From: Owenia fusiformis | Taxonomy: Eukaryota > Annelida > Polychaeta > Sabellida > Oweniidae | Direction of reading: 5' to 3' | Assembly: GCA_903813345.2 (NCBI GenBank) | Contig: CAIIXF020000008.1 | Location: 11,559,278-11,623,277 of the forward strand | DNA length: 64,000 nucleotides | Shown: positions 6,915-53,457 of the stretch, piece by piece | Layout: every line of letters starts with the position of its first letter | Numbering within the stretch: the stretch's first letter is position 1 | Program-made: the position numbers and the translations under genes | The notes under the pieces: model-generated | The model's database searches: none | Seen by the model: only the letters and a program-made list of their open reading frames with translations | What the model was told of the DNA's origin: nothing

Positions 6915-6975
6915 TTATCCCAACAAAGTTTGTGGGGGATATGGGAAAGCCATCCATCCGTCTGTCCATATTTTA
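6915..6975 (+). repeat. 5' end of the rolling-circle-like family
   Basis: TTATCCCAACAAAGTTTG, preceded by A, then GGGGGATATGGGAAAGCC and CGTCTGTCC match the 5' end at 38491. The downstream sequence to 10.3 kb may be the rest of one long copy broken by other insertions. Confidence 0.55.
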
Positions 6976-7150
6976 TTTCATTCTCAAGAATTGATAAAAA
7001 GAAACAAAAACAATTGCACTAAAAAACAAAAAAAAATGTTAACAAAAACAGTCATATAAAATATATATAAATAATCTTTGCATTAAATTGTTGTTAATGA
7101 GTCAAAATTACATAAAGGATCATGTTTACAGAATGTTTTCAATAATTGGT
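6976..7150 (+). repeat. dispersed repeat shared with 53458-53640
   Basis: TTCATTCTCAAGAATT, TTGCATTAAATTGTTGT and ACAGAATGTTTTCAATAATT occur in the same order in both places over about 180 bp. It has no ORF and its class is unknown. Confidence 0.6.
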
Positions 7151-7225
7151 TTAAAGGGTGACGCATATCGTTTAGCAAATCAAACACTCACTTCTGGTGT
7201 TGCTCACTGTTTAGTATAAAAGGCC
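7143..7225 (-). repeat. dispersed repeat, GGGTGACGCATATCG family, copy 1
   Basis: It shares GATATGCGTCACCCTTTA (reverse sense), GATTTGCTAAA and GTGAGCAACACCAG blocks with 53172-53293 and 61190-61315. In those copies GCGTTCGATTTGC recalls a pol III B box, but no convincing A box was found. Confidence 0.5.
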
Positions 7226-7300
7226 CAGCCCCGGAGATTTTTATTTTGACAAATCAATTTCACATTTATGGGTGAAGTTTCGGGATCTTCTATTTGTGTA

Positions 7301-7808
7301 TACTGTAGATTGGGTTAATTTGGCGCTACTTAATTTGGCGATTTTGCCATTTTTGGCATATTGGCGGCTATTTAATTTGGCAGATATGCAAACAAAAATA
7401 AAGTTAAACTTACGCACTATTTGCGAATTACCATGTAAATGGGCATGTTTGGCTATTCTCTTTTTTTTTTTTATTTTGAGGACCACTGGCCATATTCACC
7501 ATGTTTGTACATTTTGTGAGATCATCCTTTACATTTTGCACCTCAATCAATGCTGCTACTATACTGCACTTTTCCTTTCTAGTTTTTCACTGAGTATTAA
7601 TGAGTGACTGACCAGTTCTGGGCCAATTTTTGAGAGACATTTTTCATATTTTTGGAAAAAACTAAACCAGAAGTGACCTAAATACACTGGACGAAATGCC
7701 CTAGATAATTCCCTGGGATTCATTCTAAATTTTGGCAAAGATTTATATTGACGAATTTTTTAATTTCGCCAAATTAAAGCGGGCGCCAAATTAACCCAAT
7801 CTACAGTA
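7301..7808. mobile_element. MITE with 26-bp perfect terminal inverted repeats, TA target site
   Basis: The termini at 7301-7326 and 7783-7808 are perfect inverted copies over 26 bp (core CTGTAGATTGGGTTAATTTG). A TA at each border can be read as the target duplication, so the class is Tc1/mariner-like. AATTTGGCG motifs recur just inside. The open frame at 7272-7607 lies mostly in the element and shows no domain. Related debris is at 36437-36556. Confidence 0.8.
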
Positions 7809-8039
7809 ATAAGGAAAACTGACATCTTAATTTCACCACAACGTATTAGTACACAGCTTGGCATATGAAATATCCATATAAAACAAATCTGTTCTAATAC
7901 ATGGATTTATGTTGGCTGTTGTACATGCATTCTTTGAACAATCACTCTCTCAATAATGTTTTTAGAATCATTATGAATGGATTACTTTATCTCCAAGACA
8001 ATTTCAATAAACTGGATTTTACAACATTCCCCCTATTTC

Positions 8040-8240
8040 TTAAAAATGGACTGATCCAGTTGATTCACCTGAAGCCGCCATATTGTTTTTATACGGGAAC
8101 CTTATCGGAACCCTTTAAGAGAAAAACGTTGTTGAAGTCAGTTCACCATATCAATACCAATCCTTTCATATGCTGAAGCCTAGGGACAATAGAGCTCTGC
8201 TCAAAAAGAGATTTGCAAGATGGCTGGTAAAGGATGTGTC
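8040..8240 (+). repeat. monomer fragment of the rolling-circle-like family
   Basis: CTGAAGCCTAGGGACAATAG, AGCTCTGCTCAAAA and GCAAGATGGCTG match the monomer blocks at 9.1-9.8 kb. Confidence 0.5.
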
Positions 8241-9109
8241 CGGGTATATGCCCTTTTGGTCCCTCAGTCAAATGTATGTTAAATATGTTTTTTATTACTG
8301 TCCTAGTTATATTTGATAAGTATATTTACTTTTTCACGAGTTTTGATGCATAATTAACCCCCTGCTGAGAGTCAGAATAAGTATCTTAACAAAAAAAAAA
8401 TAGTCATTATTATAGAAAAAAACACCAATGGCAACATGTATGACATACAAAGAAGAAATAACTTAAGACCCATGAAGAATTTAAAAGAAAATCATATTTT
8501 TGAAATATATTTAAGGATTAAAATTTTTTTTCAAATTTTTGAATTTCCCGCCAGTTTAATTTGAAGGGGGAAAAACAAGATGGCTGCCATTTGATGTAAG
8601 AAATATCAGAAAAAAGTTGCTTCACTTTTAGTTTTCACAATGAGCACAGTTTTCCGGTTTAGGTTTTTTGACTGATTCTGACTCTTCATCACCAGGGTCA
8701 TGTATAGAGATTATAAAATTGAAACCGGAATGTTGTGCTCAGCATGAATTTGACTGAAATATGTGTAACTTCACCAACACAATTGAAGTCTCAAAACTGG
8801 ATGCTTAGTAACTTTGAGTGACTATAATCCCTTGATTACCCAGATAAACAGCAATTCACTTATCCAGAAATGCCATTCAATGTCTATACAAAGAAAGTAA
8901 GCAATGTTTTGGAGGATATGTTTCAAACCTTTCGCATAAATAATTCATTTAATATTTGCCATTGATTTTTTTTCAATTCTGACAAAGTGATATGCACTGT
9001 CTTTGATGCCAATGTTCTTCATTAATTGTGATACAAATTGATATTTTTGTACTCTCAGAAGAAGGATAAGATATTGAAGTTTAATAATATGTGTGATTGA
9101 GTTGGTTTT

Positions 9110-10298
9110 TCAGACATTACAATTTTCAATATTTTCTAAGTCGATACCCAGACTCATTCCCAGACTCATCCTTTCAAAATAGCCGCCATTTTTCATTAAA
9201 AAAACATTATCTATGATAACTGAAATACCAGTGAATGGACTTGGTTCAGATTTTATATGCTGGTGCTTAAGCACAAAGCAGCACTGTTTCGAAAAAGAAT
9301 TTTCAAGATTATGACTGAATTCCAAAATGGCCACAATTTTTCGTAAAAGAACATACTCTTTGATAACTCAAATGGCAATCTACAGATTTGGTTCCAATTT
9401 TGTATGTCGATGCCTAGGGACAAACAAGATCTGCTCAAGAGGTTATTTTCCAGATGGTGGTTAAATTTCAAAATGGCTGCCATTTTTCATTAAAAAACAT
9501 AATCTTTAATAACTCTTAATATCAGTGGATGGATTTGATTCAAATTTTATATGCTTGTGCCTAGGGACAAAGGAAATCTTGTCAACAGGTATTGTTTTCA
9601 AGATGACAGATAAAATTCAAAATGGCCACCATTTTTTGTAAAAAAAATGTTATCTTTGATAAAGCAAATACCAGTGGTTGGATTTGGTTCAAATTTTAGA
9701 ATTAAAGAGAGATAAAGGAGCTGAAGAAGATATCTTCAAGATGGCCACTATCTATCAAAATGGCTGCCTTTTGTTGTTAAAAATGTGATCTTTGATTAAA
9801 GGTGCAACAAGTAGTGCAGAGGAGCCATTCAACGATCATGGACCAGTGTTTGGATATTTCATCAAGACTAACATCTATTTTTATTTTCTACAAAGAAACC
9901 CCCTAGAAAATCATTATTTCAGCTTATATTCCTCTTGAAACATGGTGGATCTTAAAAATATAAAAAGTGGACATCCCCTTTTTGAAGCTTTGAACTGATT
10001 TTACACTTTTTTATGCCGAAATTGATAGTTTATCCATACATTTTAAGAAAATAGGTATGTCGAAGAAGATGTTAAGCCAACTGTTGCCTTGATAGCTCAG
10101 AAAAAGTTAAAATTTTCCTATTTTCTCTCTACAAGCCTTATTACCCCTTTAAATACTAGTGAACAGATTTGGTTAAATTTTATATTCTGCTAGGGACAAA
10201 GGAGCTCTGCTGAAGTAGATATTTTCAGGACTGCCACTTATAATCAATATATGTTTTGTTCGGTGAGATTTGCTACCCATTGGGGTTGCTGTTTTTAG
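9110..10298 (+). repeat. monomer array and 3' end of the rolling-circle-like family
   Basis: About five degenerate ~155-bp monomers run from 9110 to 9800. Each has AAAATGGC(C/T)(G/A)CCATTTTT, then ATAACTC, CAGTG(A/G)ATGGA, TTGGTTCAAATTTTATATGC and GCCTAGGGACAAAG. A different stretch follows (9945-10155, also found inverted at 48225-48418). The copy ends with GATTTGCTACCC, a stem, and GGTTGCTGTTTTTAG before TT, matching the 3' end at 39101. The frames at 9110-9483 are monomers read as protein. Confidence 0.65.
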
Positions 10299-23370: not shown

Positions 23371-23530
23371 TAGCCTAATTGGGCTTATTTTATTGATTTC
23401 AGTGATTGTATTTTATTTTTCTTAATCAACAAAACAACTGTAATATATTTGAAAAATCAACTTATGATGACTGTGAGAAAGGTTAGATTGTAATTATACT
23501 GACTTGAAATACAAGACATTGAAATACATT

Positions 23531-23925
23531 TCAACATGTTATATTGAAGTACATCAACATCTTATACTGAAGTACATCAACATGCTATATTGAAGTGCAT
23601 CAACATGTTATTTTGAAGTACATCAACATGTTGTATTGAAGTACATCAACATGTTATTTTGAAGTACATCAACATGTTATATTGACGTACACCAACATGT
23701 TATATTAAAGTACATCAACATGTTATTTTGAAGTACATCAACATGTTATATTGACGTACACCAACATGTTATATTAAAGTACATCAACATGTTATATTGA
23801 AGAACATCAACATGTTATTTTGAAGTACATCAACATGTAATATTGACGTACACCAACATGTTATGTTAAAGTACATCAACATGTTATATTGAAGTACATC
23901 AACATATTATCTTGAAGTATTGTAA
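23531..23925 (+). repeat. 23-bp tandem array with 69-bp higher-order structure
   Basis: About 17 units of TTGAAGTACATCAACATGTT plus ATA/ATT. In the middle, three variants repeat as a set: TTTTGAAGTACATC, ATTGACGTACACC and ATTAAAGTACATC, giving a 69-bp higher-order repeat over two to three rounds. Confidence 0.85.
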
Positions 23926-24629: not shown

Positions 24630-25316
24630 TCCAACTCTGACATCCATCCACGACTAACATTGATATTTACTGATCGCGCCAAGGTTTATTGCCCATCACT
24701 CTCAACAATTCAACATAGATAATCATAAGTCCAAACTGTGATACCTAAATCGATTGCCAGTTTTATGAAAAAACATAGGGGCAAACTTATATACCTATCA
24801 CTCCAAACACCGACGTCTATTCTAAAGTGATACCAATCACTCCCAATTTTGAAAACCATCTCACAAGACCTTGCACTCATCACTTATCAGGAATCTGAAA
24901 ACTACTCCAAACTTTGATACCCATCACCTGAGACATGGATACCCATACGCTCAACTTTGATACCCATCACTTCCGACATTCAACTTTAATACCAATCACC
25001 TGCGACATTGACACCAATCACTCTCAAGTTTGATACCCATCACCTGCGACATTCAACGTTGATACCCATCACTCTCAACTTTGACATCAATCACTTGCGA
25101 CACTGATACCCATCACTCTCAACTCTGATACCCATCACTTCCGACATTCAACTTTAATACCAATCACTTTTGACATTGACACCAATCACTCTCAAGTTTG
25201 ATACCCATCACCTGCGACATTCAACGTTGATACCCATCACTTGCGACATTGATACCCATAACGCTCAACTTTGATACCCATCACTCAACATTAATACCCA
25301 TAATTTCCAATTTTGA
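24630..25316 (+). repeat. degenerate tandem array, ~28-bp unit (GATACCCATCAC...)
   Basis: The core GATACCCATCACTCTCAACT alternates with TTGATACCCATCAC then TTGCGACATT and CAACTTTAATACCAATCAC variants. Regular from about 24895, loose before. Confidence 0.8.
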
Positions 25317-27697: not shown

Positions 27698-28852
27698 CTA
27701 TAAGCTTGTTTCCGTTGTCCCAAGTGAGTGAAAATCCTGGTCCTTTGATACACATCTGCACTTACAAATATACCGCCATAAAATTCTTCTAAAAACCTTG
27801 GACACAAGGCAGTATATAATGAAATTGAACGCCGAATTGAACGTCACTAGCGTAGTTCCAACAGAGTAGAAGTATCTCATCAGATTCCTGTCTGGCATCT
27901 TTACCCCTTGGGCATAAAGTGTGTAGATTAATTGGATCACAAATGCTGGGGTCTGACACATTATAAACACACAAACAACAACGACTAGCAACAACGTTGT
28001 ACTGTTCTCTTGTTTTGATCGCTTCTTCAGCCTATGTGCCGTCTCTGCTCCTGTCAAAGCAGTATAGCGCCTGTATGCACTCTTCAACGCAATTATGTTC
28101 ATGGTATTCAATACAATGAGAATACAGAGAGGAATTACAAAGTTGAAAAGATAGTACAAAACAGTGCAATAAACGATAGCGTACACGTGTCCGTTGATTG
28201 CCAGATACTCTGCAAAGCCCTTTACTTTAAGTGTTTGAGTGCAGTTATCGAATTTGATCGGGATTTTGTCAACAAAACGTGGGAAGCTGAAACAAATAGC
28301 AAACAAGGTTGCCACAACGACAGCGATCCTCACACGTATAGTAGTGCACCAGCGAACATGATGAAGCGGATGACAGATAGCGATGTATCTATCAGTAGTG
28401 ACCAGAACGATAAACAGGGTCGACATGAGTCTGCTGATGTAGGAGAATGCCCACACATAGCGGTAGATATAAGGATAGGATCCGTGAAATGGATCAAACC
28501 AGTCAGTGTAACGCCAGATACCTCTTAAACTTTGACTTACCAGAGCGGTTAATAAGTATATCGAGTCCCCTACGGCTAATGCCTGGATAAATATCCGTGT
28601 TGTTCGGGGAGTGATTTTGTCCTTTTCCATTACGCAAATGGATAAACAATTGCCGATGATGCCAAATATAGCAAGGCAGCCGACCACGAATACATCCATT
28701 GACACTCGGAAGTAAACATAACTAGGTTCATACGTCTTGTTCTTACAGACCAACCCTGTCTCTACCGTCGTGTCAACACTAAATCTCGTCAAGTTAATGA
28801 GACCCGATTCAGGAATGCTGTAGTTATAATTGTACATCGTTTCCTCCATCAT
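27698..28852 (-). CDS. class A GPCR, FMRFamide/peptide receptor-like, single exon
   Basis: Intact 384-residue plasma-membrane receptor, probably for a neuropeptide, signalling through G proteins. Seven hydrophobic segments lie near residues 50-75, 87-108, 130-153, 173-191, 225-250, 285-311 and 328-350. Class A marks: GNCLSICV in TM1 (Asn68), LAVGD in TM2 (Asp96), TDRYIAICHPL after TM3 (DRY 154-156), CQTP in TM6 (Pro302) and NFIIY in TM7 in place of NPxxY. Three N-glycosylation sequons (Asn10, Asn20, Asn38) lie before TM1. A Cys cluster, CKCRC at 363-367, may be palmitoylated. The C-terminus ETSL fits a class I PDZ ligand. The Cys usual at the top of TM3 is absent. The WF..F...YPYIY.YV stretch before TM3 recalls FMRFamide-receptor-like invertebrate GPCRs. 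The start is the first of two tandem ATGs; either could be used. The family-level call is firm; the ligand is inference. Confidence 0.93.
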   Translation of the reverse strand: MMEETMYNYNYSIPESGLINLTRFSVDTTVETGLVCKNKTYEPSYVYFRVSMDVFVVGCLAIFGIIGNCLSICVMEKDKITPRTTRIFIQALAVGDSIYLLTALVSQSLRGIWRYTDWFDPFHGSYPYIYRYVWAFSYISRLMSTLFIVLVTTDRYIAICHPLHHVRWCTTIRVRIAVVVATLFAICFSFPRFVDKIPIKFDNCTQTLKVKGFAEYLAINGHVYAIVYCTVLYYLFNFVIPLCILIVLNTMNIIALKSAYRRYTALTGAETAHRLKKRSKQENSTTLLLVVVVCVFIMCQTPAFVIQLIYTLYAQGVKMPDRNLMRYFYSVGTTLVTFNSAFNFIIYCLVSKVFRRILWRYICKCRCVSKDQDFHSLGTTETSL

Positions 28853-30019
28853 GTCAATTTTGTCTATATTTGCATTATCATCATTCCCTAAAATGTTCGT
28901 ACGTTTTTATTATGTTGTCTATAAATTATGGTTGTAGTTTTCTGGAGTTATATTACTATGTCTGTATGATGGTTATAGCAAGATGGTTATAATTTGATCG
29001 TTCACTAAAGTTGAAGGTCAAGGTGGATATTGAATCTTAATCGTTCTTATAAATATTATTTATTATGCAGAAGGATTGTCGTCTGTTCAGACATTGGTTC
29101 ATCCAGTTCTCTGACGCATAAGCTAAATAACCATTGGATTTTTCAATCAATCTGTTTTTGTTTCGTTCGTCGTCGTAATCGTCCCCTATAGGCCTTAACT
29201 ACATTAAATGTGTGAAGATTGGCACGATCATTGTGGTAAGGCAGTCATGTATTATGTCAGACAAGACAGTCTAGCTGCTCTTAATGTTGGCTTAATGATG
29301 TAACGGCAATTGTCTTTTAGGTCCAAATTGACATCCTTTTAACATCAAGATAAGATTGTCTATTGTCTTTACGATAGTTAAATTGTAGTTCCTGTTGTTC
29401 TCCAAGTTGATCAATTGTACACTCTACTGTCGCTTTGGGAACGAAAGGAGCGCCAATGTGCCAACTTTCGGTTTTGTAGCACCTTGTTGATCGCTTTGGT
29501 TCGAACAATGTTGCTCCAAGAGTGACTGTTCTATTTGTTGCAAACTGAATTCACTAAATATGAAGTAGCCAATTTTTGGTATGCTCAGTACTCACGTTTA
29601 CTTACGTAAACTGGCGTAATCGTTAGCTGTAATCCTTGCGTAAGTATTCTTGAGTTAATTATGCTCTTGTAGTTACCATCCCCTCCAGTGATCTGAAAGT
29701 AAAATGCATATTGCGTGTGTAAAATATGTTCTTTTTTATCATGGCTATGAGTTTATTGGTCATCAAACTCAATTAAGATAAGACTGGTACATTATTTGTG
29801 GTATGCACCCTCTTGTATCAAGTTACATTTGCTGAGTAACGGGTAATTTAGAATTCTTAGAATACGTATTTAAAAAGCAATTCTAACATGAATATGACGT
29901 TACCTGGAACAGGTCCTGGTATAGCACGGGGCCATATTTTGCCAGTGTAAACAAACACAAATATATTCTTCTTATTTATTTCGAGTAAACTTTCTAACTT
30001 ATAACAATTGAATGTTCGA
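28853..30019. other. upstream region of the GPCR gene
   Basis: It should hold the GPCR promoter and 5' UTR on the minus strand. A TTTATAG-like string near 28920 is a weak TATA candidate. No repeat or gene noticed. Confidence 0.45.
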
Positions 30020-31827
30020 GGGTTAGTACAAAACATGGCATGGTGCCATGGTATAGGCTATGGCACCCCGTCCTCTCGGACACTATTTTGAGTCAAATGC
30101 CTCGTGCGAGTACACGGTTGGTGGCATTCACTCTGCAATAGGCTCTAGGACACTATTTCTAGCCAAAATCTTGCAGATTCATTTGCCTTGTGTGAGTTTA
30201 AGTTCTCCAAAGGTGTTTTTCTCCGCTTTTTGGCAGAACTTGAACTCATAAAAGACCTTAAATCAGCAAGATTTGGACTTGTCAACATAGTGTCCTAGAG
30301 CCTTTGGCACAGGAGGTACCATAGCCTATGCCATAACAAGCATAAAAATGACAGCCAGTTTTCAAAATGGGCACTCACTAGCTAAATTGTCATTGGAAAG
30401 TGTATCATGCTCATCAGCTCATCAGTGAGTTTCAAAAAGTTAGATTTTTAATTTAATTTCCTAGACAATTTTTGCATTTAAAACATATTAATATTGCAGT
30501 TATATAGTAGCCGAGACAACACAAGTCCCAAGTCTGTATTTTTACTCTCATTTCTTCACTTTTAGGAGTTAAGTCATCATATTTTGCATGCATATTCCTT
30601 GAAGAAATCCTAACATAGAATTTTATTGGTTTCGATTATAATTTATTTGTTAAAAATAGAGAAACATTTGATTTGTATTGGTCCATAATCAGAATTATCC
30701 ATTTTGTGTAACAAATGCAACATTTTGACGTCATTAATAAAAATTGAAGTTATAAATGATAGATACAATATGGTGTCTCTAATCTTACTGACAATAACTA
30801 TCATCCTAGATATTTTTTGCCAGTCATCAGATCATGCATTGGAAGAGTACCCCAATGAGAAATGCATTCATTGATTGTGGCAAGCAGTGAATTGGCAAAA
30901 CAGTGGTGGAGTCACACCATTATTTTGCCGCATTTTGGTGCTTAATTTCCCCTTTAAGATCGTTTGTTACTACTGTGATGTCACAATATAGCATCTGACG
31001 TCATAATATGGGTACCAAATTAACGCACACATTACAAGCTTAAAGATGATACCAAATATGTCATCATTCATTTGATTAAAATGGTTACTGGAATAAGCCC
31101 AAAGGGTATGCCACTCCCCTACCCCATCCATTTTTCAGGAAATTAAAACACGCAAAAAATCTCAAATAATGCAGGCATCTTCAGGGGTCCTTTTTGGCCC
31201 CGTTTTATTTCAAATATCATGTTTCTGCATACCATTTTTCTCGGATATGTCTCAATTACCCCAAAATAGTTACACTTCTGCTGAAAAAGGAAACATGTGG
31301 TCAATTTGGAATTATTACACCAAAAGTAGTGATTTTTTACATAAAGTTAAAATAATGCATTTGTCGCTGAAAATGGCAAATTTTGATTATAGACCAATCA
31401 GAATCAAATGTTTCTCTATTTTCAACAAATAAGTTATAATCAAAACCAATAAAATTCTATGTTAGGATTTCTGCAAGGAATATGCATGCAAAATGTGGTG
31501 ACTTAACTCTTAAAAGTGAAGAAATGAGAGTAAAAATACAGACTTGGGACTTGTGTTGTCTCGGCTACTATGTTGTGTCTAAAGAAAAAATTGACACTAA
31601 AATGGTGGCCATTTTGAAACAGGTAGCCATTTTTGAAATCGACTTTTGTGGAGAACTTAATTTCACACGAGGCATATAATTCTGCAAGAATATGACTCGA
31701 AATTATATGGGGTGCCATAGCCTATGCCATAGGGTATGCCGTGGTACGGTGCCATGCAGCCATAGGGTATGCCATGGTACAGTGCCATAGGGTATGCCAT
31801 GGCGCGGTGCCATGTTTTGTACTAACT
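30020..31827. mobile_element. 1.8-kb foldback element with GCCATAGG-rich ends
   Basis: The ends GGTTAGTACAAAACATGGC (left) and the inverse at 31809-31827 bound two long inverted arms. The best-kept arm part is about 30490-30740 against 31335-31575, e.g. GCCGAGACAACACAAGTCCC facing GGGACTTGTGTTGTCTCGGC. The ends are made of short palindromic units such as GCCATAGGGTATGCCATGG. Open frames inside (31169-31679) are short and shared between arms. No transposase. Confidence 0.7.
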
Positions 31828-33249: not shown

Positions 33250-36200
33250 TAGCTGGTATATTGGTGTGTAGCGGCCAATATACATAAAACTGACATAATG
33301 AGTTTACAGGAAGCTTAATAATTAGATGACATTTGACCAAAATTATTTTTATTTCATTTGTAAAACAAATAAAAGTTATCACTGCCATGCTTCACACAAT
33401 CAAATAGATTGCACTTTACATACTTGAAAAATAAATGGGATTACTATAAAAGATGCAATATTAATATCGTGTTAGATGAAATAAAATATGTGTTTAACCC
33501 GAGACTATTGCAATATTTCTTGACAAAATGAGATAACTGTTATAGCAATAGCATATAAGTCTTCAAATATGACACCATCCTATACATAACGCAACTTAAT
33601 TCGAAATACCGGAGTTCATTCACTTTTAATCTGGGAAAAATAAGACACGAAGAAGCTTCAATCAACTTCTATTGGTAGTTCTTCGTTCATTCACATTTTC
33701 AATTTAGAATTCTAGACAATAATTCCTCTATGGAGAAGAATATGTCGTTATAATTCTCACATTTACCTCTCCTTTATCACAATATCTACTCCCCAAACCC
33801 ATAATTGAATTTCGGACTTTCAACTGGCTAAGAGTACACTCAATTGATGAGCAGGTTATAGTTTTTCAAACGAAGTTTAAAAAAGGTTTCTTGCTTTCCC
33901 TAAAGGCGTTAGTTTCTAGAAAAAATACTGCCCTAGTGTATCATTTATTTTTGAAAGAGACAGCGGCAACATCATCTACAAAATGGTTATTTAAACGACC
34001 TAGAGACCAAAAGGCTATCTGTAATGTTTTCCCAAAAGTGCAAACAGTCCAAATTGCAATCTGTTGATTTCTTTGTGACATGTACATTGTGCAGTGAAAG
34101 TATTGGCTATGCACCGTAGGGAATGAAAACAGTAATCTGGCTCGTGTCGTTCGTCGTATTACAGCATTCTAGCATTTCTTTCCTTTAAACAGCTCTTTAA
34201 TTAAACGATAACGCGTTGAAAAGCTAGGGACATTCGTATATGAAATTGAACCAAAAATGCCTTGCTGTTAGAACATTCCAATACATCGATGTTCCAACAT
34301 CTCAGTATGCGACGAACGATGGTAAATCCATACGGAGTTAATTAGATCATATAACAAGTACAATTCATCATTGCAATTGGTTTTAATTCGAACCCCGGTG
34401 ATTATTCCGAGCTTCATCACATCCTTGTACTGTAGACGGATCAACGCCTACGTCAAGTATTGTCTTTGACGCAACTCCTACTGAACAACGGTGAACACGA
34501 AGCCTGATACCCAGTGCCAGATTTCAAGTAGGCCACGGGCCAGTGGAAATCCCCAAAGCTTTTCCATGCAAGTTTCATAAAAAGGCTGGCTGTTACCACT
34601 TCTTCGTGTTTTTGTATGTTTATATCCTTAAAAGTCAAAATGACAAAAATCTTCTTCCAATCGCCAAATAGCATAACAGGGAGGCCTAGTTTTTAATCAT
34701 GACGCTATAAAGGACTGTTTTATAATCATCAATTGGTTATTCAATGAAGATTGTTCTAATCAAGGTTAAGCATTGTTAACGTTACTAAAAGACCAAGTAT
34801 AGATACAAAATTATGCGAAAACACAGATATCTGAGATGAGATACATTGTTTGATAATAAACATATTACTTTTGTGGGAGAAATTGCAATGATTAAAACTT
34901 TCTCATATCTGAACAGTCTCCAATGTCAAATAGTAATTATCCAAAAGCTTCGAATGAAGTTCCGAGAAATGTATAGAAAACACCGGCCGGCCATCCATAC
35001 GATAACAGAAATACCAATGATTGGAATTCTTTGAGGCTACTTCAAAATCAGTTATTCTAAAATATAGGGCAACAATTTAGAAACACATATTGTGTTAACG
35101 CGTTTTGCGTTTTTGCTATGAATAACAAGGCATTAACATGCAACTGAAATGACACCACATACCATTTGTCACAGACGCCTAACGCCGAACACCAACCGTC
35201 GAGCACCGTCCACAAAACGTTGGAGACCATAACAATATTTAATGTTACCACTTGTGGTGGTGAGATAAGAAGCATAATTCCATTCACTATTACAGGATAG
35301 TACATTGAAAGCCTAAGGCATATTTCAACAATGGTAGCGTGACACATTCTGTCACATACAGCTTGCTTGGTAATCCACATTCGTACCAGGCAACATATTT
35401 CTACACTTAAAATGAATGTCATGTGTCAGATTTAATGTCAAAGATTGACCCATTTTATTTTTAGTATCGCAAAGCAATTGGATGTGTCGTCTGTGTTCAT
35501 TCCATACTCTTTCCATATTTAATCATCTTAATCTTAATGAAAATAGCATAAATGCGTTTAAAGGCCCTGTGTGAACTTTGAAAATATATCTTTGTGTAAA
35601 CAATATCCGTGATTTTAAACCGTTATATAAAACATATTCAAGAGGAATGATTTAAGTGTGCTTGATATTACATGACACTTTGACAGTGCAAGGGAATAAG
35701 ATATGGGCACATACATACCAACTATGAACAAGATTGGTCCATTAATTTCACAATTAGATGTATTTGTGCAAAACATTTTGAACAACCCTTGTATAATCTC
35801 AGTTCGTGAAAGGTCCTTGGAAGTTGATATATGCATCTTATATTTAGCTAATTTCAACGTTTGAGTAATACTTGCATCGTTTCGCTTACGGTAAATGGAA
35901 ACAATATATGGTCTAATAAGCAGATGAAGTAACCATAGCTTTCATTTCTTAAATGTAGTCTAGCGCCCGACTCCACTTTTACAATAGGGAGTTTTGAGCT
36001 TGCAATGTTTTTCACAACCTAAACGTGAACGGAAAATAAGGCAGGGAAGCTATTGGCGTCAAATACAAGTTATGACAAGCTCGACACTATTTTTTGTTGT
36101 TTTTTAGATGTAGACGCACCCCTTGACAAAATCCTGCAGACGCTGCTGCAATTAATTAAATACAAGTTGAACCATGGATACATGAACTTGAATTGCTTGC

Positions 36201-37857: not shown

Positions 37858-39309
37858 CACAGGCTGGTATCGAAAGATTTGTTCGCTGTGACGGAGCATG
37901 ATATTTTTCATAAAAACACTGAGAATACTTCACAAATTATTTTTTAACTCATATGTTTCGTTATATCAAAGAAAATTACTTACTAATGGATATATCATTT
38001 GCGGGTAACCTTCACTTCTGTTTGAGGTCCAATAACGCTAGGAGTAAAAGCTATTGAAAACTGCGCCAGAGTATCAAACTCTAAATTGTACCATTTCTTT
38101 TTTAACGCTTTAATGGCATGATATAGCGACACGATAATATTCACATATGTTTTCAGCATAGCTCCGAATGTATCAATGGGATCTGGAAATATTGGGTCTT
38201 TTTATTTTTTCATGAAAATAATTTTAAACATTTTTTGTCCGCTGTGACGGAGCAGTTTCACAGGTCACATTTGCAATTCGTCACAGCGGACAAAAAAATT
38301 AAATATTATTTTTTATAAAAAAATAAATAGACCCAATACATCAATATCCTATTAATAATAAAGTTGTGCTGAAAATATGTAAATATTATCGTGTCCCTAT
38401 ATCGTGCCATTAAAAAGTTAAAAAAGAAATGGTACATTTTGGAGTATGATACTCCGGCGCCATTTTCAATAGCTTTTCCTCCTAGCGTTATTATCTCACC
38501 GAACTAAGTTCGAGGGGGATATGGGAAAGCCGTCCGTTCGTCCGTCTGTCCGGGCAATAACTCAAATACCGATTGACGGATTTGATTCAAATTTTATAGG
38601 CTTATGCCTCATGGGTGTAGGACCTCTGCTCGTGAAGGAATTTTCAATATGGCCGCTCAATTCAAAATGGCCGCCATTTTTCGTAAAAAATGTGATCTAT
38701 GATAACTAAATTACTAATGGACGGATTTGGTTCCAATTTTATATGCTGATGCCTAGAAACAAAGGAGCTTTTATTCAAGACGCCATTTTTCGCAAGAAAA
38801 CGTAATTTTTGATAACTCAAATACCAGTTAACGGATTTCATCCAAATTTTATACATCTGATGTCTAGGGACACAGTTGTTCGAGAAAACATTTTCAAGAT
38901 GGAGGCTGAATTTCAAAATGGCCGCCATTTTTCCTTTAAAAACGAAATGTTTGATATCTCAAAAACCAGTGAATGGATTTGGTTTAAATTTTAGAAGCTG
39001 ATATGCTCTGTTCAAGAAGGAATTTACAAGTTGGCCAATAATTATCAAAATGTGTTTTGTTCGTTGGGATTTGCTACTCAGTAGATTTGCTGTTTTTCTA
39101 GTTGGACTTCAAACAGAAGTGCAAATTACCCGCAAATGATATATCCATTGCTTGGAGCACGGACCTGAAAGTCCGTGCTTGGAGTAAGTAATTTTCTTTG
39201 GCATAACGACACATGGGTTAAAAATAAATTGTTTGGTTTTCTTAGTGTTTTTTTATGAAATATAGGCATGTTCCGTCACAGCTGACAAATCTTTTGATAC
39301 CAGCCTGTG
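37858..39309. mobile_element. large hairpin (foldback) element, interrupted by a nested insertion
   Basis: The left arm 37858-38249 pairs with 38279-38490 and then, past the insert at 38491-39101, with 39102-39309. The tip is a 19-bp perfect stem (38231-38249 with 38279-38297, TTTTTTGTCCGCTGTGACG). A second copy of GTGACGGAGCA lies near the outer end. No ORF and no clear target duplication. A partial copy of the left arm is at 52727-52925. Confidence 0.8.
38491..39101 (+). mobile_element. non-autonomous rolling-circle-like element (Helitron/Helentron type)
   Basis: It splits the hairpin element, whose intact left arm gives the empty site (CCTAGCGTTATTGGACC read on the opposite strand). The insert starts TTATCTCACCGAAC after A, and ends TGTTTTTCTAG before T, with no duplicated target. 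Near the 5' end is a small stem (CGAAC TAA GTTCG). Near the 3' end CTAC TCA GTAG forms a stem 17 bp before CTAG. The body consists of degenerate ~100-160-bp monomers, each with AAATGGCCGCCATTTTT, TTTGATAACTCAAATACCAG and a TTGGTTCAAATTTTA.A block. No Rep/helicase is encoded. Confidence 0.65.
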
Positions 39310-40189: not shown

Positions 40190-41119
40190 ATGAGGCAGAT
40201 TACTACATTTGGACTTTACTTCTTCCTTCTTATAAAAGTTGAAAAAAAGTTTGAAAAAATTGTTTCTGTGAGGTTTAGGTGAGGCGCTTGATTTTTGGGA
40301 ATGAAAAACTCACCAAAAAGTGCTAGTGTATTTGTTCTAAATGAATTAAAGTAATTTCCTGCAAGTTATACCGTGTCGTTGTAATATTAAGTACGATATA
40401 TATTTGTTATCATTGAAAATAAGATAAAAAAAACAAGGAAACGTACAAAGAACAAATGAAATCCGTAGATAAAAATTTCAAGTACGTGCTCGCATCCGCT
40501 TCAAACCGAGGAAACTTTAGAAAATACATCTAGGGTCCGGGCTTACTCGTATGAAATATTTCAAAAATAGGTCATCGATTTCATTTCATTTTGATTTCTC
40601 TCATCGGATCAATTGTTTTCTTTCATTCATCCAAATAATGACAAAAGTGAAAAAACTTCACATATTTTAAGTGTGTACTACTTTAATGAAACATGGGAAA
40701 TCACCTATATTTACCTTTACAACTAAGATCTTATTATCAAGGTCAAGTATTAATACCGAAAAAGGAAATGAGGACTAGTTTAATCGTGCAACCCGTTGAA
40801 CTTCGTCACGTTGCCTGTGATACCATGACCATTAGTAAGCAAGGGGACCTAACCGCTATCTGAATTAAGTAGTTTTCAGAAGAATAATGTGACATAAACA
40901 GATAAGTGATTTTTCAACCCTTCAGCTTTTGGTACGTAGATGTTCGAGACATAATTGGTACATAAAAAACTGATTAAATCTTTTATATCATAGACTGTAC
41001 ACATTACTGAATCCAAGATTCATTTTAGGCTGAGTAAACTGATTTATATGGGTCCAAAATGACAAAAAGACAAGGCCCTAAGAATGATAATACTACAAAA
41101 TGGAAGAAAGCCATTAGTT
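40190..41119. other. intergenic, nothing seen
   Basis: AT-rich; no frame or repeat of note. Confidence 0.6.
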
Positions 41120-41927
41120 CGTTCATGTGTTTGTACAATAACTTAAATATCAGGCGACGAATTCATTGTGTTCGGAATTTCAGAAGACTGGTGTCTTAGG
41201 TACAGAAGAAATTTTCAAGGTTGTCGCTGGCTTTAAAAATGTCTCCCGTTTCCATGAAAAAATGTAAATATTATATGTAAAATTTGGTCCAAATTTAATG
41301 TCTTATGGAAAGGGGACCCCTGCCTTTTTAACATGATTGGTCATTTCAAAATGGCCGCTTTTTCTAAAAAATCTAATCTTAGATAACTCAACTACCAGTT
41401 AACGGATATGGCTCATATGCTGCAGATGCCTTATGGACATAGCTTTCTGCTCAAGAAGGAACTAGTTACCTCTAAATATGGCCGTTGAATTTCAAAATGG
41501 CCACCATCTCTCATGAGTAGCACAATTTGGTCCTATTATATTGACTCGTGTCTTATGGCTAAAAGACCTTTGGTCAAGAAAGCATTTTCAATGTGGCCAC
41601 TTATTTTGAAATGGACACAATTTTTTCTTAAACATGTAATCTTTAATATTTCAAATATCAGTTGACGGATTTGGTTCAAATTGAATGTACTGATTCCCCA
41701 GGGATATGGGACTCTGCTTAAATCAACATGGCTTCATTCTAAAAAGAAAATCATAAGATGGTGTCACCAGTCACTTCAAATCATAGAGGTAGATTTTGCC
41801 AAAAGGAAACAATACGGCTCCTGGTTATTCTATGTATTGTTAAAAATGATGAGTGCTTTAGTAAATATGTATTTGGTGGATTTGCTACCCCGTAGATCAG
41901 TCATTCCAGATAGTAATGCCCCAATCA
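41120..41927 (+). repeat. degenerate copy of the rolling-circle-like monomer family
   Basis: Several monomers carry TTTCAAAATGGCC, GTTGACGGATTTGGTTCAAA and CTCAAGAAGGA blocks. The 3' hairpin GCTACCCCGTAG is at about 41884-41895, but the usual CTAG end is replaced by other sequence. The 93-codon frame at 41681-41962 is within this repeat. Confidence 0.5.
41898..41927 (+). repeat. 30-bp sequence perfectly inverted at 44834-44863
   Basis: CAGTCATTCCAGATAGTAAT and ten further bases are the exact reverse complement of 44834-44863, 2.9 kb away, while the flanks differ. Confidence 0.8.
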
Positions 41928-41964
41928 CATTTTTCTGTCCACGTGCATTTTCTCTAAAATAGCC

Positions 41965-43439
41965 CCGTGCCTGTAGTGTTAATCATTATGGTTGTATAGG
42001 ATGGTTCAGTGCCTAATATTGTCACTTTAAGTTTGGCTGCATTTGTCCACACATATGTGTTGTCACAATCAGTTAAGTCAGAAATTCTTAAATTACGTTA
42101 TTGTCGCCAAGAAGCATTTTTAGGTATATGGAAGAAAACAGACTAAGTTTATTTATCACAACCCGTATTATATATTTTCACGGGTAACAATGATGTGTAA
42201 GAAATATTCATGCGGAGTTTCAAATCGAAATACTAATAAGAACCTCTTCTTTTCAACGTTATAATAATGTCGCCAGATTCTTGAAAGTTACTGCCTGTTG
42301 CATGTATACCTGATATGGAGCTTATACTAATAAAATATGTGACTTTTACCTTAAAACCAACATCAAATACTAGTATACATATAAAATATTCATGAAATAT
42401 ACAGAATGTCAATGTATTTACCAAGATAAATAATTTGTGACCTGTCAAAAAATATTTTTTGAAACGTATGGATAAGGACTTTAAACTACGTTACCACCAA
42501 ATATCCAGCATAATTGAAGAACGAAGGCACTGTTTTCCACATATATTGTACTGCTGCCTTGGGTGACTTGATATGAGACCCTACTCTGTCGGTTAGTACT
42601 GAATTAATAATTGATTCGCAATGATGTCACATATATTAAATAACGTTACTTTAAACTACGTGAGCCTTTTTTACGAAACAATCCTATTTTGACTTGTTTG
42701 ACTCAAAGCTGTGTATTATATCTGACAATCGACTACAATCCATCAAAATAATTGAAAATATGTTAATAAATACCTAACTCCATTCACAATCTCAGTAAAG
42801 AACATTTAAGTAATTTTTGGATAATAATTTTGAAGCACATCATTCATTAGAAAGGTGTTATTTGTGGTGCAAGAACAAAGTTTTCAATTTGAAATATATG
42901 AATAAATTACGTTATGTGTTACGTGTTAAGGAAATGGTGAAACAGAAACCTTTTTGAATTTTGAATTCCTGCTGATTTTATTTTCTTGTACAAAATAAAG
43001 TATGAAGGCATGTAAAAGTTTCAAGAAATTATCGTCACAACGTTTTCCTTTATTGAGTCTGGTAAGACGTTTATTTTAACTCCAGGAAATGCTGAAATTT
43101 CATGAAAACATTCAAATGGACGTCTTTTCAATTTCCAATGTTTTCTCAAAGTTTCTTTACAACACTTGAATTACCATGGACCTTTTACCAAGTTTATTAA
43201 AAGAAGATAATGTGATAATGTTTTCCTGAAAAACAAGGAAATGCACACATGCCATCATACTTTATTTTCAACAGAAAATAACATGTGCAGGTAAATCAAT
43301 TTTTCAAAAATGTTTTCGTTGTACACCATTACCTTAAGCGGTACCACACACCCAGAGTAGAGCTTCCCCCTAAAAAAGGTTTGTTTCTTGCTTTGCATCG
43401 TGAAGTGCAAAAATGAGCCCCAGAGAAAGAGCACTGACG
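41965..43439. other. intergenic, nothing seen
   Basis: Short chance frame at 42233-42448 only. Confidence 0.6.
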
Positions 43440-43740
43440 CAGACGAACCCTATGATAATGAACCAGCTGTTATGTACATGATTGACAATTATACTGCTGC
43501 AGTCTATGATGGTGCTTGGTATACTGTATTGGAAAATTAGTTAATGCGGATATGGTGTGCTATGAAACATCATTTATGATTAACAGACGGGGGTATTTTC
43601 AGTGGCCTTCACTAGAACATGTACTCTGGGTAGCCAGAACGTGTACTTTGGGTAGAATATGCAAACGTTCTTTCCCAAATAGTGGATTTGATTCCCAAGT
43701 AAGAGAATGCAAAAATGTTCAAGATTACCTGAACTGATGA
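43440..43740 (+). pseudogene. frameshifted remnant of a transposon-type protein
   Basis: One frame reads VMYMIDNYTAAVYDGAWYTV and stops at 43538. A second, from about 43530, reads NADMVCYETSFM, then GYFQWPSLEHVLWV and QDYLN, ending at 43735. Together they resemble a recurring domain in repeat-derived ORFs: YD..W..G, then F.WP...D..WV, then a short tail. The frame change near 43530 breaks it. Recognition is from memory of the pattern, so it is tentative. Confidence 0.4.
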
Positions 43741-43744
43741 TGAA

Positions 43745-45845
43745 CTATTTGTCTCCAAAATTGAATTAAGAGACAATGACATCTGATATGTGGTTTTGGA
43801 CAGATATGATTTGAAAATACATTACAGTACTTTTTAGCGACGTCTCTAGAGTTGTTGAGTAAATTGATAAAGTTGTTATAAGAAGTTCAAGTTTTACATA
43901 GACTTTGAACAATATTTGCTCTCATTATCTAATGACTACAGTTTCTTAACAAGCGTTACCAAAATTTGCTGATTCAGTGCTAGGATAAGGGGTCTAATAC
44001 CAACTACATTTAGCACCATTATTATTCACAATATGTAATGATTGGTCTGTTTTTTTCATTGTAATGTCTTCTTGATCAGATTTAATGACACATGAAGCTG
44101 ATGTTCCAAGATGTTAATCTACGTTACCATTCGTTTAAATATAGTACCCAAATGCTATATTTTACATGAACATAGTGTGTTTTCATAAAAATGAGTTTCT
44201 CTTTTATATAAAACGGACCAAATTAATTCTTTGGAAACCACTGTATTGTGCAACTGATTGAATTGAAAATGTCAGCTCCCAGCAATTAATATACGTTATG
44301 TAGACATGTTCAATGCTTGAGCTTTTTTACAAATAAATAAACGTGGCAGTATCCAATATTAGTGTTCAGCAATGCAGAGATATACTCCTTTGCTTTGCTA
44401 AAAAGTATTAAATTGAGGGAATGTTCACAAAAGATTTACACTTAATGATTGAATGACTGACAAACATTATGAAAATTATAATTTTAAGGACAAAAAAAAA
44501 ATATTTGTAATTGAGCAAAAAATTTCAAATGCCAACTATCATTAATCCTTCTGATAAGTATCAGTACCCTAATGTCTGTACTTTAAGGTAGAAAAACATT
44601 TTATTTGGTAGCACTGTCATAAATTGAGAAGCATTCAAGTCAATTAAGATGGTGCCTATAACGTAATTTAAAGTGGCACAAAAACTTTAGATGTGTACCA
44701 CATATTTCAAATCAAAATTTCTTCGAAACCAAGAGAGTCTAAAAGCCAATTTTTGGGTATTATGCTGTAGACATAAAATAACAAGGTATGACGTGAAACG
44801 GAGAAACTTTATTTTTTATCATTTTCCGAAAACTGATTGGGGCATTACTATCTGGAATGACTGAGAGTTGCTGTTTCTCTAGTTTCGATCGTTTCCCGTG
44901 CCAAGTTCCGTTACCGGTACTAGTGAGGTAACTACTCACGGTAGTGTCAAAATGAATGGTCATAACAGGAGTGGGTGTCCAAATAAGATAGAAGAGAACA
45001 TTGGCATGTCGCCGTGTCTATCCTGTCATTAAGAATCTCATTAGTTGTATCTCCCTCTTGAAAATTGGGAAGTATTTAATAAATCATCAATCACGACGTT
45101 GTTTTGACACATTTTCACATTATCACAAATGTACTAGTGTCATCCACTATCGCATTATTCCACCTATGAATTCGAATTGATTTGGATATCCGTGAATCCA
45201 GAGCGGGATTATCGTCCCTTGAATTATTACGGAGACATTACACTCTGGGAGGTTCAGGTTAATGTCCAAAAGTCTCAAGTCTGTGATTGCTCCAATTCAC
45301 CTGATTGCATAGTGGAGATGTTTTGTACGTCATTTTTATGTCACCATCGACATATTCAGTCTTCAACTGTTGTGTACGGTGTTCTGCGGTGGGCGTCTAT
45401 TACCAATGGCAGGTGGTGACATTTTACATGTTAATGTCTTGTGAGTTTCACGACATCATTTCATTTGTATCGAAGACGAATAACCAGGTCTATTAATAAA
45501 AATTGATACTCCGTTTATTGTATTGGAATGATTAGAAATAATCATGCAAGGAATATGTCGCACACCGTCGCTTTCCACTAGGTCTAGGTAGGAAAGATCG
45601 AAACGTTGTGAATCAAGATGCATGTCGCATTGTTAATTGCTAATCCCAGGATCATTCATGCATCTTTTTTATTTACAGAGGATATATGATTTATGGATAA
45701 AATAGCCACTTGTAAACATGTGCCAATGTTAAGCCAATGCTAAGTCTGCAAGTATCTTCAACATTTCTTTATTGTTTTGAACACAGAGAATTATGGATCT
45801 GACAAAAAATATCTTCCGGGATTTGATGGTTCCGTTTTGTTTCTA
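43745..45845. other. intergenic, little seen
   Basis: Apart from the 30-bp inverted partner at 44834, only short frames (44760-44963, 45177-45496). Confidence 0.55.
44834..44863 (-). repeat. 30-bp sequence, inverted partner of 41898-41927
   Basis: Exact partner of 41898-41927. It is followed by GTTGCTGTTTCTCTAG, which resembles the CTAG 3' end of the rolling-circle-like family at 39101. Confidence 0.8.
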
Positions 45846-47965: not shown

Positions 47966-48224
47966 TAAGGAGCGAACTTAGAGGTTCTATTTTGCACAAG
48001 TACATGTAATAGGCAAATTGATCACGATTTCTGACACAACACGCGAGCGCAATGTCAATAGTTTTCCAGGCCTATATCTTCCAGAGAAGCCAAAATTAAG
48101 AACGGAAATTGATAGCCAAGTTTCATTCTCGTCAATATCGAGCCACTTTCAGGAGCAATTCTGACTTGAAATAATGATACTGATCGTCAATATCTATCTA
48201 CCAAATTCTATCTTACAAATTGCT

Positions 48225-48418
48225 TTAGAGGGGGAACAAGGCCTGCAGAGAGAAAATTCGAAAAGTTTTACTTCTGAGCTATCAGGGCAACATTTGGCTT
48301 AACATCTTCTTTGGCATATCTATTTTCCTAAAATGTGTGAATAAACTATCAATTTCAGCATTAAGAAGTGTAAATTCAGTTCAAAGCTTCTATAGAGGGA
48401 GTCCCACTTAAACGATTT
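48225..48418 (-). repeat. dispersed repeat, inverted copy of the 9965-10155 segment
   Basis: Read on the minus strand, GAAGCTTTGAACTGAATTTACAC-type sequence, ATTTTAGGAAAATAGATATG, AGATGTTAAGCCAAATGTTG and GATAGCTCAGAA follow the order seen at 9.97-10.16 kb, with moderate divergence. Confidence 0.55.
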
Positions 48419-49403: not shown

Positions 49404-51738
49404 AATTAAGGTAACAGGACAACTCATTCCTAAGACAACTCATCCCAAGACAACTCATCCCCGAGACATCTCATCCCAAGACAACTTATCCCAAGACATC
49501 TCATCACAAGACAACTCATCCCAAGACAACTCATCCCAAGACATCTCATTCCCAAGACAACTCTTCCCAACTTGAAATATAACATTTAAACAATTAATTT
49601 CAACTTTTGAAAGAATATTTGAAAGATATTTAGGATTTTAGCAGTAAGCACACTGTGTTTGGCCATGGAATATCTTTTGTATTTTGTAGTTAGTTTACTC
49701 TAGTTTCAGTTAATTTTTTTTCATTGATTTGGGATAAAGATAAACATGTTCAAATTGATGTATACTTTGATTATTAAATCAAAGATCATCAAGGGTGTCA
49801 GATTAGGATTAATGCAATAAGAATGTATTATCCGGGGTATTATCAAAATAATTCTCCCAGATTAATTCAGTCTTTGTTTGACATGGCGAATGTTAAAATC
49901 TTTATACTCAAATTCCACAAACAAAGTTATTTTTGGGCAATATAGCACTGAGTATTTCGACACGCCATCTGGTGTTAAACAGGGCTGTATTTTATCTCCC
50001 ACCCTTTTTTCGATTGTAATGACTGACCTTGTAGATAGCCTTAATAATATCCACTCTCGGTTTGCCATACAATAAATTCCATGTCTTTTATATGCAGATG
50101 ATATTGTCCTTATGGCCCAGACAGAAACAGAACTACAGAAAATGCTCTCTATTACAAATGATTTTGGGCTCAAGTGGGCTATGCAGTTCAGTGACAAGAG
50201 GTCAAAAGTAATGATAATTGGGAAACGAATTGATCATAAGAAAAAGTGGCATTTGGGAAAGCTTTTACTTCCTGAGGTCAATGAATATAAATATCTAGGT
50301 GTAATGTTCAACAGATCCTTAAAAGAAACATCCCACATTAAATACATTGAAAAGAAAGCAAAGAATATGAAAAATTACATAACCATGACATTAGCAAAAC
50401 ACTGCAATATTAAAAGATTTGATTTTGGAAGTACCATATTTAATTCAATGATGATGCCTGCACTCTTACATGGTTGTCCAACATGGGTTCTTTCCAAGAC
50501 AGCCATATCCAAACTTAATGCATTCCAATACTCCGCAGGTCAAGCGATTTTTCAAATTAAAAGTAAGCCTGCAAGAGAAGCATTACTATGGGATCTAGGA
50601 TGGAAACCTTTATGTGACATTTTAGAAAAAAGACAACTAGAGTATTTTAATTGTCTCAATTATGATTTACCTACACAAAGTTTTAAGGTCATTATTACAA
50701 TGTTATAAGGAGGAGAAAGAATCATACTCGAAGTTCATATCTAATATACATAGAAGTGTCACAGATAAGGGTTTAGATGATGTTATATACAGAAATGATT
50801 GTGATTGGTTCTCTACGTTTGTAGACATATCCAAAGCATAACAATTAGAAAAGTATCATGAGAGCATCTCAAATCATGATTCTCTCTACATTTACAAAAA
50901 TTTGAAAACTGACTACAAACTAGAGGACTACTTGAAAAATGATTTAGATTTTTATGGTGCTAAGCTAAAGCCAGGTGTAACAATTTTTGTCTTGAAACAA
51001 ATTATGAAAAATGGGGTAAGAGTGATGGAATATGTAAATTTTGCACACTTGAAGTGAAAGACACAATGCATCACAGATTATTATTATGTCCCTTCTTTAC
51101 CAAGGAAAGATCTGATTTTTATAATAATGTTAATACATATGTCTCAAGTGACCTATGTGCAACAGTACTTGCATCAAGTAATGATCAAAAGATAATGACC
51201 ATGCTTGGGGACAATGTGGAATGGGGGCATGATACAAATTTTAGTCTTGATAAAATCGTCAAGCAGTTTTTAGTCAAAATGTTTAAACCAAGAACTGTAT
51301 GATTGTTTTTAGTAATTTCCTGTTAAATGTTTGCTATTGATGTAGACGCACCTAACAGTATAGATGTTAGAGTGCTGCTGTTATTTTAAAAGCATATGTC
51401 TAAATAAAAATAAATAAATAAATAAAATACTTTGCTTAATTCCAATATGTCAAAATGTTAAACTTTCAGAATCATGCTGATTGAATTTGGAAATTATGTC
51501 TGACTTTTATCTTCAATTCTACATTCTCAAATATATTGAGAATTTGAGAATAACCCAGAATTAATAAAAATACCTGTACGTAAAAGTAGAACATAACTTT
51601 CAAGTGCCATTTCTTGGGATGAGATGTCTTAGGATGATCAGTTGTCTTAGGGATGACTTGTCTTGGGATGAGTTGTCTTAGGGATGAGTTGTCTTCGGGA
51701 TGACTTGTCTTGGGATGACTTGTCTAGAAACCGTAATT
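49404..51738. mobile_element. foldback element with inverted 15-bp arrays, carrying the LINE
   Basis: About ten AAGACAACTCATCCC-type units (49417-49570) face about seven inverted units (51612-51726). Just outside, TGTAATTAAGG on the left matches the inverse of CCGTAATTAG on the right. This resembles foldback transposons with tandemly repeated inverted ends. The LINE at 49863-51425 probably inserted into its centre. Confidence 0.7.
49863..51425 (+). pseudogene. 5'-truncated, broken non-LTR retrotransposon (LINE) with reverse transcriptase remnant
   Basis: One main frame covers most of the element. It shows GVKQGCILSPTLFSI (RT motif B), YADDIVL (RT catalytic motif C), a region with YLGVMFNRSLKE, and a C-terminal CKFC...H...C zinc-knuckle-like motif near 51035-51095. 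Damage: an in-frame TAA at 50073 just before YADD, a frame change near 50690, a further TAA about 150 nt on, and a return to the first frame near 51030. The 5' side is missing (motif A and the endonuclease are not seen). The 3' end carries an AAATA-type tail at about 51400-51425. It sits between the inverted 15-bp arrays at 49417-49570 and 51612-51726. The LINE clade is not assigned. Confidence 0.85.
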
Positions 51739-52726: not shown

Positions 52727-52925
52727 TGTCCACCTTTGAGAAAACTTCACAAAATATTTTTAACTCATATATTTCGTTATACCAACGTCAATTAGGTACT
52801 CTATGCAATGGTTATATCATTTGCGCTTAACCTTCACTTCTGTTTGAAGTTCAATAACGCTAGGAGTAAAAGGTATTGGAAACGTCGCAAGATGTATACT
52901 CTAAAATGTACCATTTCTTTTTTAA
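52727..52925 (+). repeat. partial copy of the 37.9-kb hairpin element's left arm
   Basis: AACTCATATATTTCGTTATA, CTTCACTTCTGTTTGAAGTT, CAATAACGCTAGGAGTAAAA and TGTACCATTTCTTTTTTA match 37930-38105 in order. The inverted partner is missing. Confidence 0.75.
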
Positions 52926-53171
52926 AACTGGGTATCGATATGGTGAACTTTTTGAATATACAAACCAGTCATCAAAAAATTCTAAAAAATTTACAAATCG
53001 TCAATTAATGCTCATCTTTTGAATGGTAACAATATAATTTGAAAAACATATAGAAGATCCTAAAACTTCACCCATAAATGTGATATTGATTTGTCAAAAT
53101 ACAAATCTCCCTTTTATAAATCTGTGACGATCTATAATATACTTATGCTATATATAACAGTTAGAGGTGTT

Positions 53172-53293
53172 GACACAACGACCTCGAGCCTGTGAACCCT
53201 GAGTATTATTCCGGGATCGGGTCTTTTATACTAAACGGTGAGCAACACCAGCAACGAGCGTTCGATTTGCTAAATGATATGCGTCACCCTTTA
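53172..53293 (+). repeat. dispersed repeat, GGGTGACGCATATCG family, copy 2
   Basis: Best-kept member: CCTGAGTATTATTCCGGGAT, TTTTATACTAAACGGTGAGC and GCGTTCGATTTGCTAAATG in order. Followed by a 12-base G run at 53332-53343. Confidence 0.6.
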
Positions 53294-53331
53294 ATGAAAT
53301 AAAAGGTTTATCTTAATTTTTATCTATATGA

Positions 53332-53343
53332 GGGGGGGGGGGG
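53332..53343 (+). repeat. homopolymer run of 12 G
   Basis: Longest G run noticed; liable to sequencing length error. Confidence 0.9.
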
Positions 53344-53457
53344 TGTTGTTTTAATTTTTTGAATACTTTTTGTTAAATCAACCAAAATTTCTAATTCCTA
53401 ACTATCATATTGAGAGATCTAAGAAAATGTTATGAAAAGCTTCGGAAAGATATTTCA

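Follow-up and report, generated by a model that had tools for sequence, protein, structure and literature searches.

The 64-kb stretch of Owenia fusiformis DNA analysed here (64,000 nucleotides, referred to as the window; GC about 34%, 0 N) contains a long-hairpin element in which one arm is interrupted by a block of several hundred base pairs, and this raises the question of what kind of mobile element the block is and exactly where it begins and ends. Non-autonomous Helentrons disperse satellite-like repeats in oyster genomes, and published accounts differ as to their ends and target rule. At this locus, the twin arm and a separate copy of the hairpin element act as an internal control that pins the 5' boundary of the insert to within two bases.

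A precise insertion in a long-hairpin element

The following features define the insertion (a vertical bar marks the insertion point):

37858..39309, no strand assigned: long-hairpin element hosting copy A, 841 bp minus the insert
38491..39101, plus strand: copy A of the probable HINE family, 611 bp, with two empty sites, no protein encoded
38032..38033, no strand assigned: empty site 1, in the opposite arm, reverse complement CGTTA|TTGGACC
52854..52855, no strand assigned: empty site 2, in the partial hairpin copy elsewhere in the window; its reverse complement reads CGTTA|TTGAACT

The arms of the hairpin element pair between 38031-38151 and 38372-38492 (121 nt, 89%) and between 37985-38032 and 39102-39149 (48 nt, 92%), and the unpaired 611 bp at 38491-39101 have no counterpart in the opposite arm, exactly as the preliminary description had placed the insert and its empty site. 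When the flanks of the filled site were joined by script, they read CCTAGCGTTA|TTGGAC, and the opposite arm is identical across the same stretch. A local search of the window also detected a second, partial copy of the hairpin element at 52737-52925, again without the insert, whose arm portion at 52797-52920 reads CCTAGCGTTATTGAACTTC. In the alignment, CCTAGCGTTATTG is continuous in both empty versions and in the joined filled flanks. Because the second empty site lies outside the hairpin, the 611 bp must have been inserted here rather than deleted from the opposite arm. The block is a single precise insertion, well delimited, and the hairpin element is older than copy A, which sits in one of its arms.

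Related copies, boundaries and ends

Pieces of three further related loci (copies B, C and D) were found by local search of the window, so the family sample comprises four copies, all from this one 64-kb region:

63007 to 62143, minus strand: probable HINE copy B, 865 bp, ends as in A, central repeats mostly different
6915..10298, plus strand: probable HINE copy C, 3384 bp, both ends present, swollen by other repeats
about 41106..44882, plus strand: probable HINE copy D, 5' end decayed, similarity starting at 41106

The 3' end of copy B was missed by the local search and was detected with a profile built from the 3' ends of A, C and D (nhmmer E = 4.9e-5 at 62185-62149), on the correct strand and in the correct order, 865 bp from the 5' end of B, where the copy terminates in CTAG|TT. 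Similarity of copy B to A covers the first 199 bp of B, which extend into one A-type monomer and also contain a weak 130-column match (63%) to another A monomer, and the final 43 bp of B. The middle of B is made of repeats mostly unlike those of A, and the matches to A there are all short (21-47 bp). Having similar ends and mostly different repeats, A and B give the impression that the terminal hairpin is retained and the cargo can be swapped. The central array of copy C occupies 9172-9796 with a period of 147 bp, and its extra repeats include pieces recurring within 53046-53692 and at 48224-48409. Pairwise identity among the 60-bp 3' ends of the four copies is 61-79%, which is below the 80% cited in parts of PMC4067079 as the subfamily threshold of Thomas et al.

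Two other elements lie in these copies. At 7301-7808, in repeat DNA within copy C, there is a MITE-like element of 508 bp whose inverted repeats are perfect over 26 bp (TACTGTAGATTGGGTTAATTTGGCGC), and a TIR element of about 3 kb (41897-44864, with 31-bp perfect TIRs and GA on both sides) splits the 3' end of copy D and itself contains a palindrome at 42915-43348.

The boundary of copy A had previously been thought ambiguous by one base. It is indeed ambiguous, by two bases, since the arm alignments overlap by TT. Three placements, each of 611 bp, are compatible with the first empty site, namely A|TTATC..CTAG|T (38491-39101), T|TATC..CTAGT|T (38492-39102) and TT|ATC..CTAGTT|G (38493-39103), and the A|T and T|T placements fit copy A equally. 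A 609-bp insert accompanied by a TT target duplication is just as compatible, so that a TT duplication is indistinguishable from none and the lack of duplication is unproven. In all three two-ended copies (A, B and C), the longest exact flank duplication is TT.

None of the placements begins with TC, and the canonical Helitron 5' end can be rejected, as a TC start would make the joined flanks exceed both empty sites by 3 bases. Despite their differing flanks, the three copies whose 5' end is readable (A, B and C) all carry TTA directly before TC, which indicates that TTA is part of the element. The 3' junction is followed by TT in all four copies (chance about 2e-4 at the window TT frequency of 0.118), and A precedes the 5' TT in 3 of 3 (chance about 0.036 at an A frequency of 0.329). 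The same three copies share the start TTATCYCAMC, which had been predicted as fixed from copy A; one start-like match elsewhere in the window, at 35259-35268, is an isolated 10-mer. At the other end, TAG and then TT close all four copies, and the CTAG expected of every copy is present in A, B and D (3/4), C having TTAG. The end signature of the family can be written ATCYCACCGAAC ... GTTCGGTGRGAT ... CTAG.

Between these ends, copy A has the following parts, in which a microsatellite is succeeded by central tandem repeats in the order typical of oyster HINEs:

38492..38521, plus strand: 5' terminal two-tier hairpin (subterminal inverted repeat, subTIR, plus complementary inverted repeat, IR), -5.3 kcal/mol, z -2.84
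38493..38504, plus strand: 5' subTIR ATCTCACCGAAC, 10/12 against the reverse complement of 39059-39070
38530..38551, plus strand: GTCC-type microsatellite in the left flank, read from the sequence
38557..39052, plus strand: central array of 4 diverged monomers, start spacings 145, 110 and 142 bp
39059..39070, plus strand: 3' subTIR GTTCGTTGGGAT, ending 31 nt before the 3' end
39074..39084, plus strand: short, weak 3' palindrome CTACTCAGTAG, 17 nt before the end, not stronger than shuffles
39098..39101, plus strand: 3' terminal CTAG, then TT

The subTIR is a 12-mer at element positions 3-14, and both its length and its start 2 nt from the 5' end fall within the ranges used for HINEs (subTIR lengths of 11-15 bp and, for the 5' repeat, a position 2-4 nt in from the terminus). 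Within a copy, the two subTIRs match at 10/12 positions in A, 11/12 in B and only 8-9/12 in C; the matches in A and B were equalled by 71 and 66, respectively, of 20,000 random 60-nt pieces of the window. The 5' end of A and the 3' end of C match at 12/12 positions, and 0 of 300 random pairs were as good. When the 12-mer could be chosen freely, A's own pair was equalled by 28 of 300 random pairs and the pair of B 5' and C 3' by 5 of 300. The 3' subTIR ends 30 nt before the element end in B and 29 nt in C.

The first 35 nt of each folded copy (A, B and C, in this order below) form a two-tier hairpin, with energies of -5.3, -10.5 and -5.7 kcal/mol and z scores against shuffles of -2.84, -4.59 and -2.19. 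Among 5,000 random 35-mers from the window, 104, 1 and 81 folded as well as these ends, and 188 contained a stem of 10 or more pairs that began at nucleotide 3 or earlier. An IR complementary to the 5' subTIR, which is a trait of oyster HINEs, is present at all three readable 5' ends. Stem pairs were taken from the individual folds, as MAFFT placed the 5' hairpin of C out of register. The outer stem TATCYC/GGGATA is common to the three copies, with one T-G replacing C-G in A. The inner stem is six pairs long in A and B and four pairs long in C, and A-T replaces some of the G-C; depending on how C is aligned, these inner-stem replacements are consistent with compensatory change. The small stem reported earlier at the 3' end exceeds shuffles in C (z -2.97) but not in A (-0.14) or B (0.13), and the stronger hairpin is that of the 5' end. 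Copy A has a weak 3' palindrome, and in B none is apparent. HINE palindromes lie 8-35 bp from the 3' end, and the one in copy A, at 17 nt, folds weakly. A palindrome of the canonical Helitron type (16-20 nt, about 11 bp from the 3' end) was not found, two of the three folded 3' ends being no better than shuffles.

Identity of the insert and alternative readings

Taken together, we consider it highly probable (roughly 0.88) that the insert is a HINE, that is, a non-autonomous Helentron, carrying a short satellite-like array at a TT (ATT) site. It is assigned to HINEs rather than to canonical Helitrons because a TC start is rejected and because the hairpin common to A, B and C, the copies folded, is the 5' terminal one. 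The family is of a known kind, HINEs as in oyster and mite; Cg_HINE, the Repbase families and Pearl/DTC84/MgE are likened to the present copies by their described anatomy and not by sequence identity. Parts of PMC7492417 describe oyster HINEs with the order 5' subTIR, complementary IR, microsatellite, satellite-like repeats, 3' subTIR and palindrome, and with a TT target for which no duplication was found. According to the same account, Cg_HINE of Crassostrea gigas resembles copy A in its 5' subTIR (11-12 bp in Cg_HINE) and complementary IR, its microsatellite (GTCY, GTCC or GTCK in several Cg_HINE), its central repeats (mostly 140-180 bp in Cg_HINE), and its 3' subTIR and palindrome, and one Cg_HINE group has common flanks with unrelated repeats, somewhat like A and B. 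However, the 110-bp monomer spacing of A is below the Cg_HINE range, and its 3' palindrome is weaker (PMC7492417, in part). The Pearl family, DTC84 and MgE of bivalves are modular, as are the copies here, and Pearl has short arrays of up to six repeats of about 160 bp, which is a likeness to copy A (parts of PMC7492417 and PMC5139131). In the relevant parts of PMC4067079, HINE-Mo and DINE-1 resemble the copies here in having subTIRs that lie 2-4 nt inside the 5' terminus and empty sites without duplication (for copy A, none longer than TT), and mite HINEs have TT on both sides with its assignment left undecided, matching the three placements of copy A. In contrast, the 3' subTIR lies nearer the end here (29-31 nt) than in mite HINEs (about 38-60 nt), and the 3' palindrome is weak here, unlike that of HINE-Mo and DINE-1 (PMC4067079, in part).

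What is seen directly is a precise insertion, conserved asymmetric ends and a TT site; from the resemblance to HINEs, we infer rolling-circle transposition by a Rep/helicase acting in trans. By analogy with published Helentron biology, a full-length element elsewhere in the genome would supply this Rep/helicase (with or without an endonuclease), which would recognise the ends of the insert and nick the T-rich junction. Rolling-circle synthesis would then copy one strand through to the 3' end, and the single strand would be inserted at TT with no staggered cutting of the target, so that no multi-base target duplication would be produced. Of the two possibilities raised in the preliminary description, Helitron or Helentron, the rolling-circle character gains support from the shared ends, the two empty sites and the HINE anatomy, and the canonical Helitron is not.

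A canonical Helitron (Helitron1) would start with TC, end in a 3' hairpin plus CTRR and insert between A and T, with TTA arising from slippage at this site. The CTAG of three of the four copies conforms to CTRR, and A|T is one of the three allowed placements, but with a TC start the joined flanks would be 3 bases too long for both empty sites, and the TTA before TC recurs in all three copies, whose flanks differ, so that it belongs to the element. In addition, the 3' hairpins of A and B fold no better than shuffles, and the canonical Helitron features given in the consulted parts of PMC4067079 do not include subTIRs, IR or a microsatellite, so we regard this reading as very improbable. Equally little credence can be given to a MITE moved by cut and paste that duplicates a 2-bp TT target: the TT on both sides of A, B and C would fit, but the inverted repeats are asymmetric, lying 2 nt from the 5' end and 31 (A) or 30 nt (B) from the 3' end, and the anatomy agrees with HINEs. 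A less remote, though still rather unlikely, possibility is an intermediate between Helitrons and Helentrons, similar to proto-Helentrons, of the form 5' TTATC...CTAG 3', inserting at A|T, with HINE subTIRs and satellite cargo and moved by a Rep/helicase of the Helentron clade that lacks the endonuclease. This is a sub-case of the HINE reading, and the two are not exclusive, their probabilities overlapping. Parts of PMC4067079 describe proto-Helentron-Pi of Phytophthora with 5' TT, 3' CTAG and A|T insertion; the first two are found here and the third is possible. The A|TTATC..CTAG|T placement fits, A stands before TT in 3 of 3 copies, and elements with mixed features are reported from C. gigas in parts of PMC7992393. 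On the other hand, the T|T placement fits equally well, the recurrence of A before TT, at a chance of about 0.036, is weak evidence, and proto-Helentron-Pi is about 14 kb long and encodes Rep/helicase (PMC4067079, in part), whereas the motif and Pfam scans of the window detected no protein of this kind.

The C. gigas Helitron-like elements are of particular relevance here. As described in parts of PMC7992393, they start with TC, are inserted at A|T in 86% and were called possible intermediates. Like copy A, they are short, end in CTAG and have no Rep/helicase, and a fraction of them has a subTIR and IR; they differ in being described as TC-starting, which the boundary of copy A is not, and in that a microsatellite is present in only one of those bearing subTIRs (PMC7992393, in part). 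The empty sites thus reject a TC start in a relative of oyster elements so described, and both of them place the A before TC inside the insert in this relative. By analogy, an A belonging to the element may explain how oyster relatives came to be described both as TC-starting, A|T Helitrons and as TT-inserting Helentrons. If the oyster copies share TTATC, the A|T stated for them could be a product of how the boundary was called. Were the intermediate reading true, the oyster 'TC start, A|T' would be a boundary-calling artefact and the two descriptions would be reconciled.

Searches for a partner that might encode Rep/helicase, and for further copies, gave the following results. A six-frame motif scan of the window, which is a weak test, found no Rep motif 2 and no PIF1-type Walker A pattern; a loose Rep motif 3 pattern had 13 matches in the same scan, taken as chance. 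Around C and D, 25 stop-free frames (14 + 11) were listed and 11 were scanned against Pfam: ten shorter ones gave 3 matches, all below the cut-offs, and a frame from this region among the 8 longer window frames scanned was matchless, with no Rep/helicase in any of those 8, both scans again being weak tests. Copy C was considered as an autonomous source and set aside, as neither Pfam nor the motif scan, weak as these tests are, found Rep/helicase in it. In viral contigs, the 5'-end pattern had 1 match (L001), which shows no other resemblance to the window, looks like coding DNA of a prokaryote or phage and was rejected as a relative, and two further patterns had 0 matches. A loose 16-base pattern retrieved 35 loci, and the best matches to the insert among all fetched loci had E values of 0.048 (L001, the pattern itself) and 0.17. 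One pattern searched in a genome contig collection had 0 matches, and phage records gave none. Rfam and tRNA scans of the window each returned 0.

Other features of the window

Long imperfect palindromes with 59-73% self-complementarity are found at 15684-16713, 18087-18718 and 4956-5707, suggesting that long-hairpin elements may be common in this region. An inverted pair at 30504-31571 has arms of about 239 bp (90%), spans about 1.07 kb and ends in ATAGTAGCCGAGACAACACAAGTCCCAAGT and its inverse, and inverted arms at 53831-54778 (76%) start with TACAGGGCGTCCACAAAAAAGTATACCCAC. An uninterrupted frame of a rhodopsin-type GPCR lies at 27698-28906 on the minus strand (7tm_1, E = 9.4e-23), and a reverse-transcriptase remnant at 50076-51302 (RVT_1, E = 9.2e-8) is flanked by tandem arrays of 31-bp units in opposite orientations (49418-49570 and 51612-51725). 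Minisatellites are present at 471-769 (28/56-bp units), 11237-11769 (31/92 bp), 23518-23919 (23-bp units) and 24910-25301 (about 22/73 bp).
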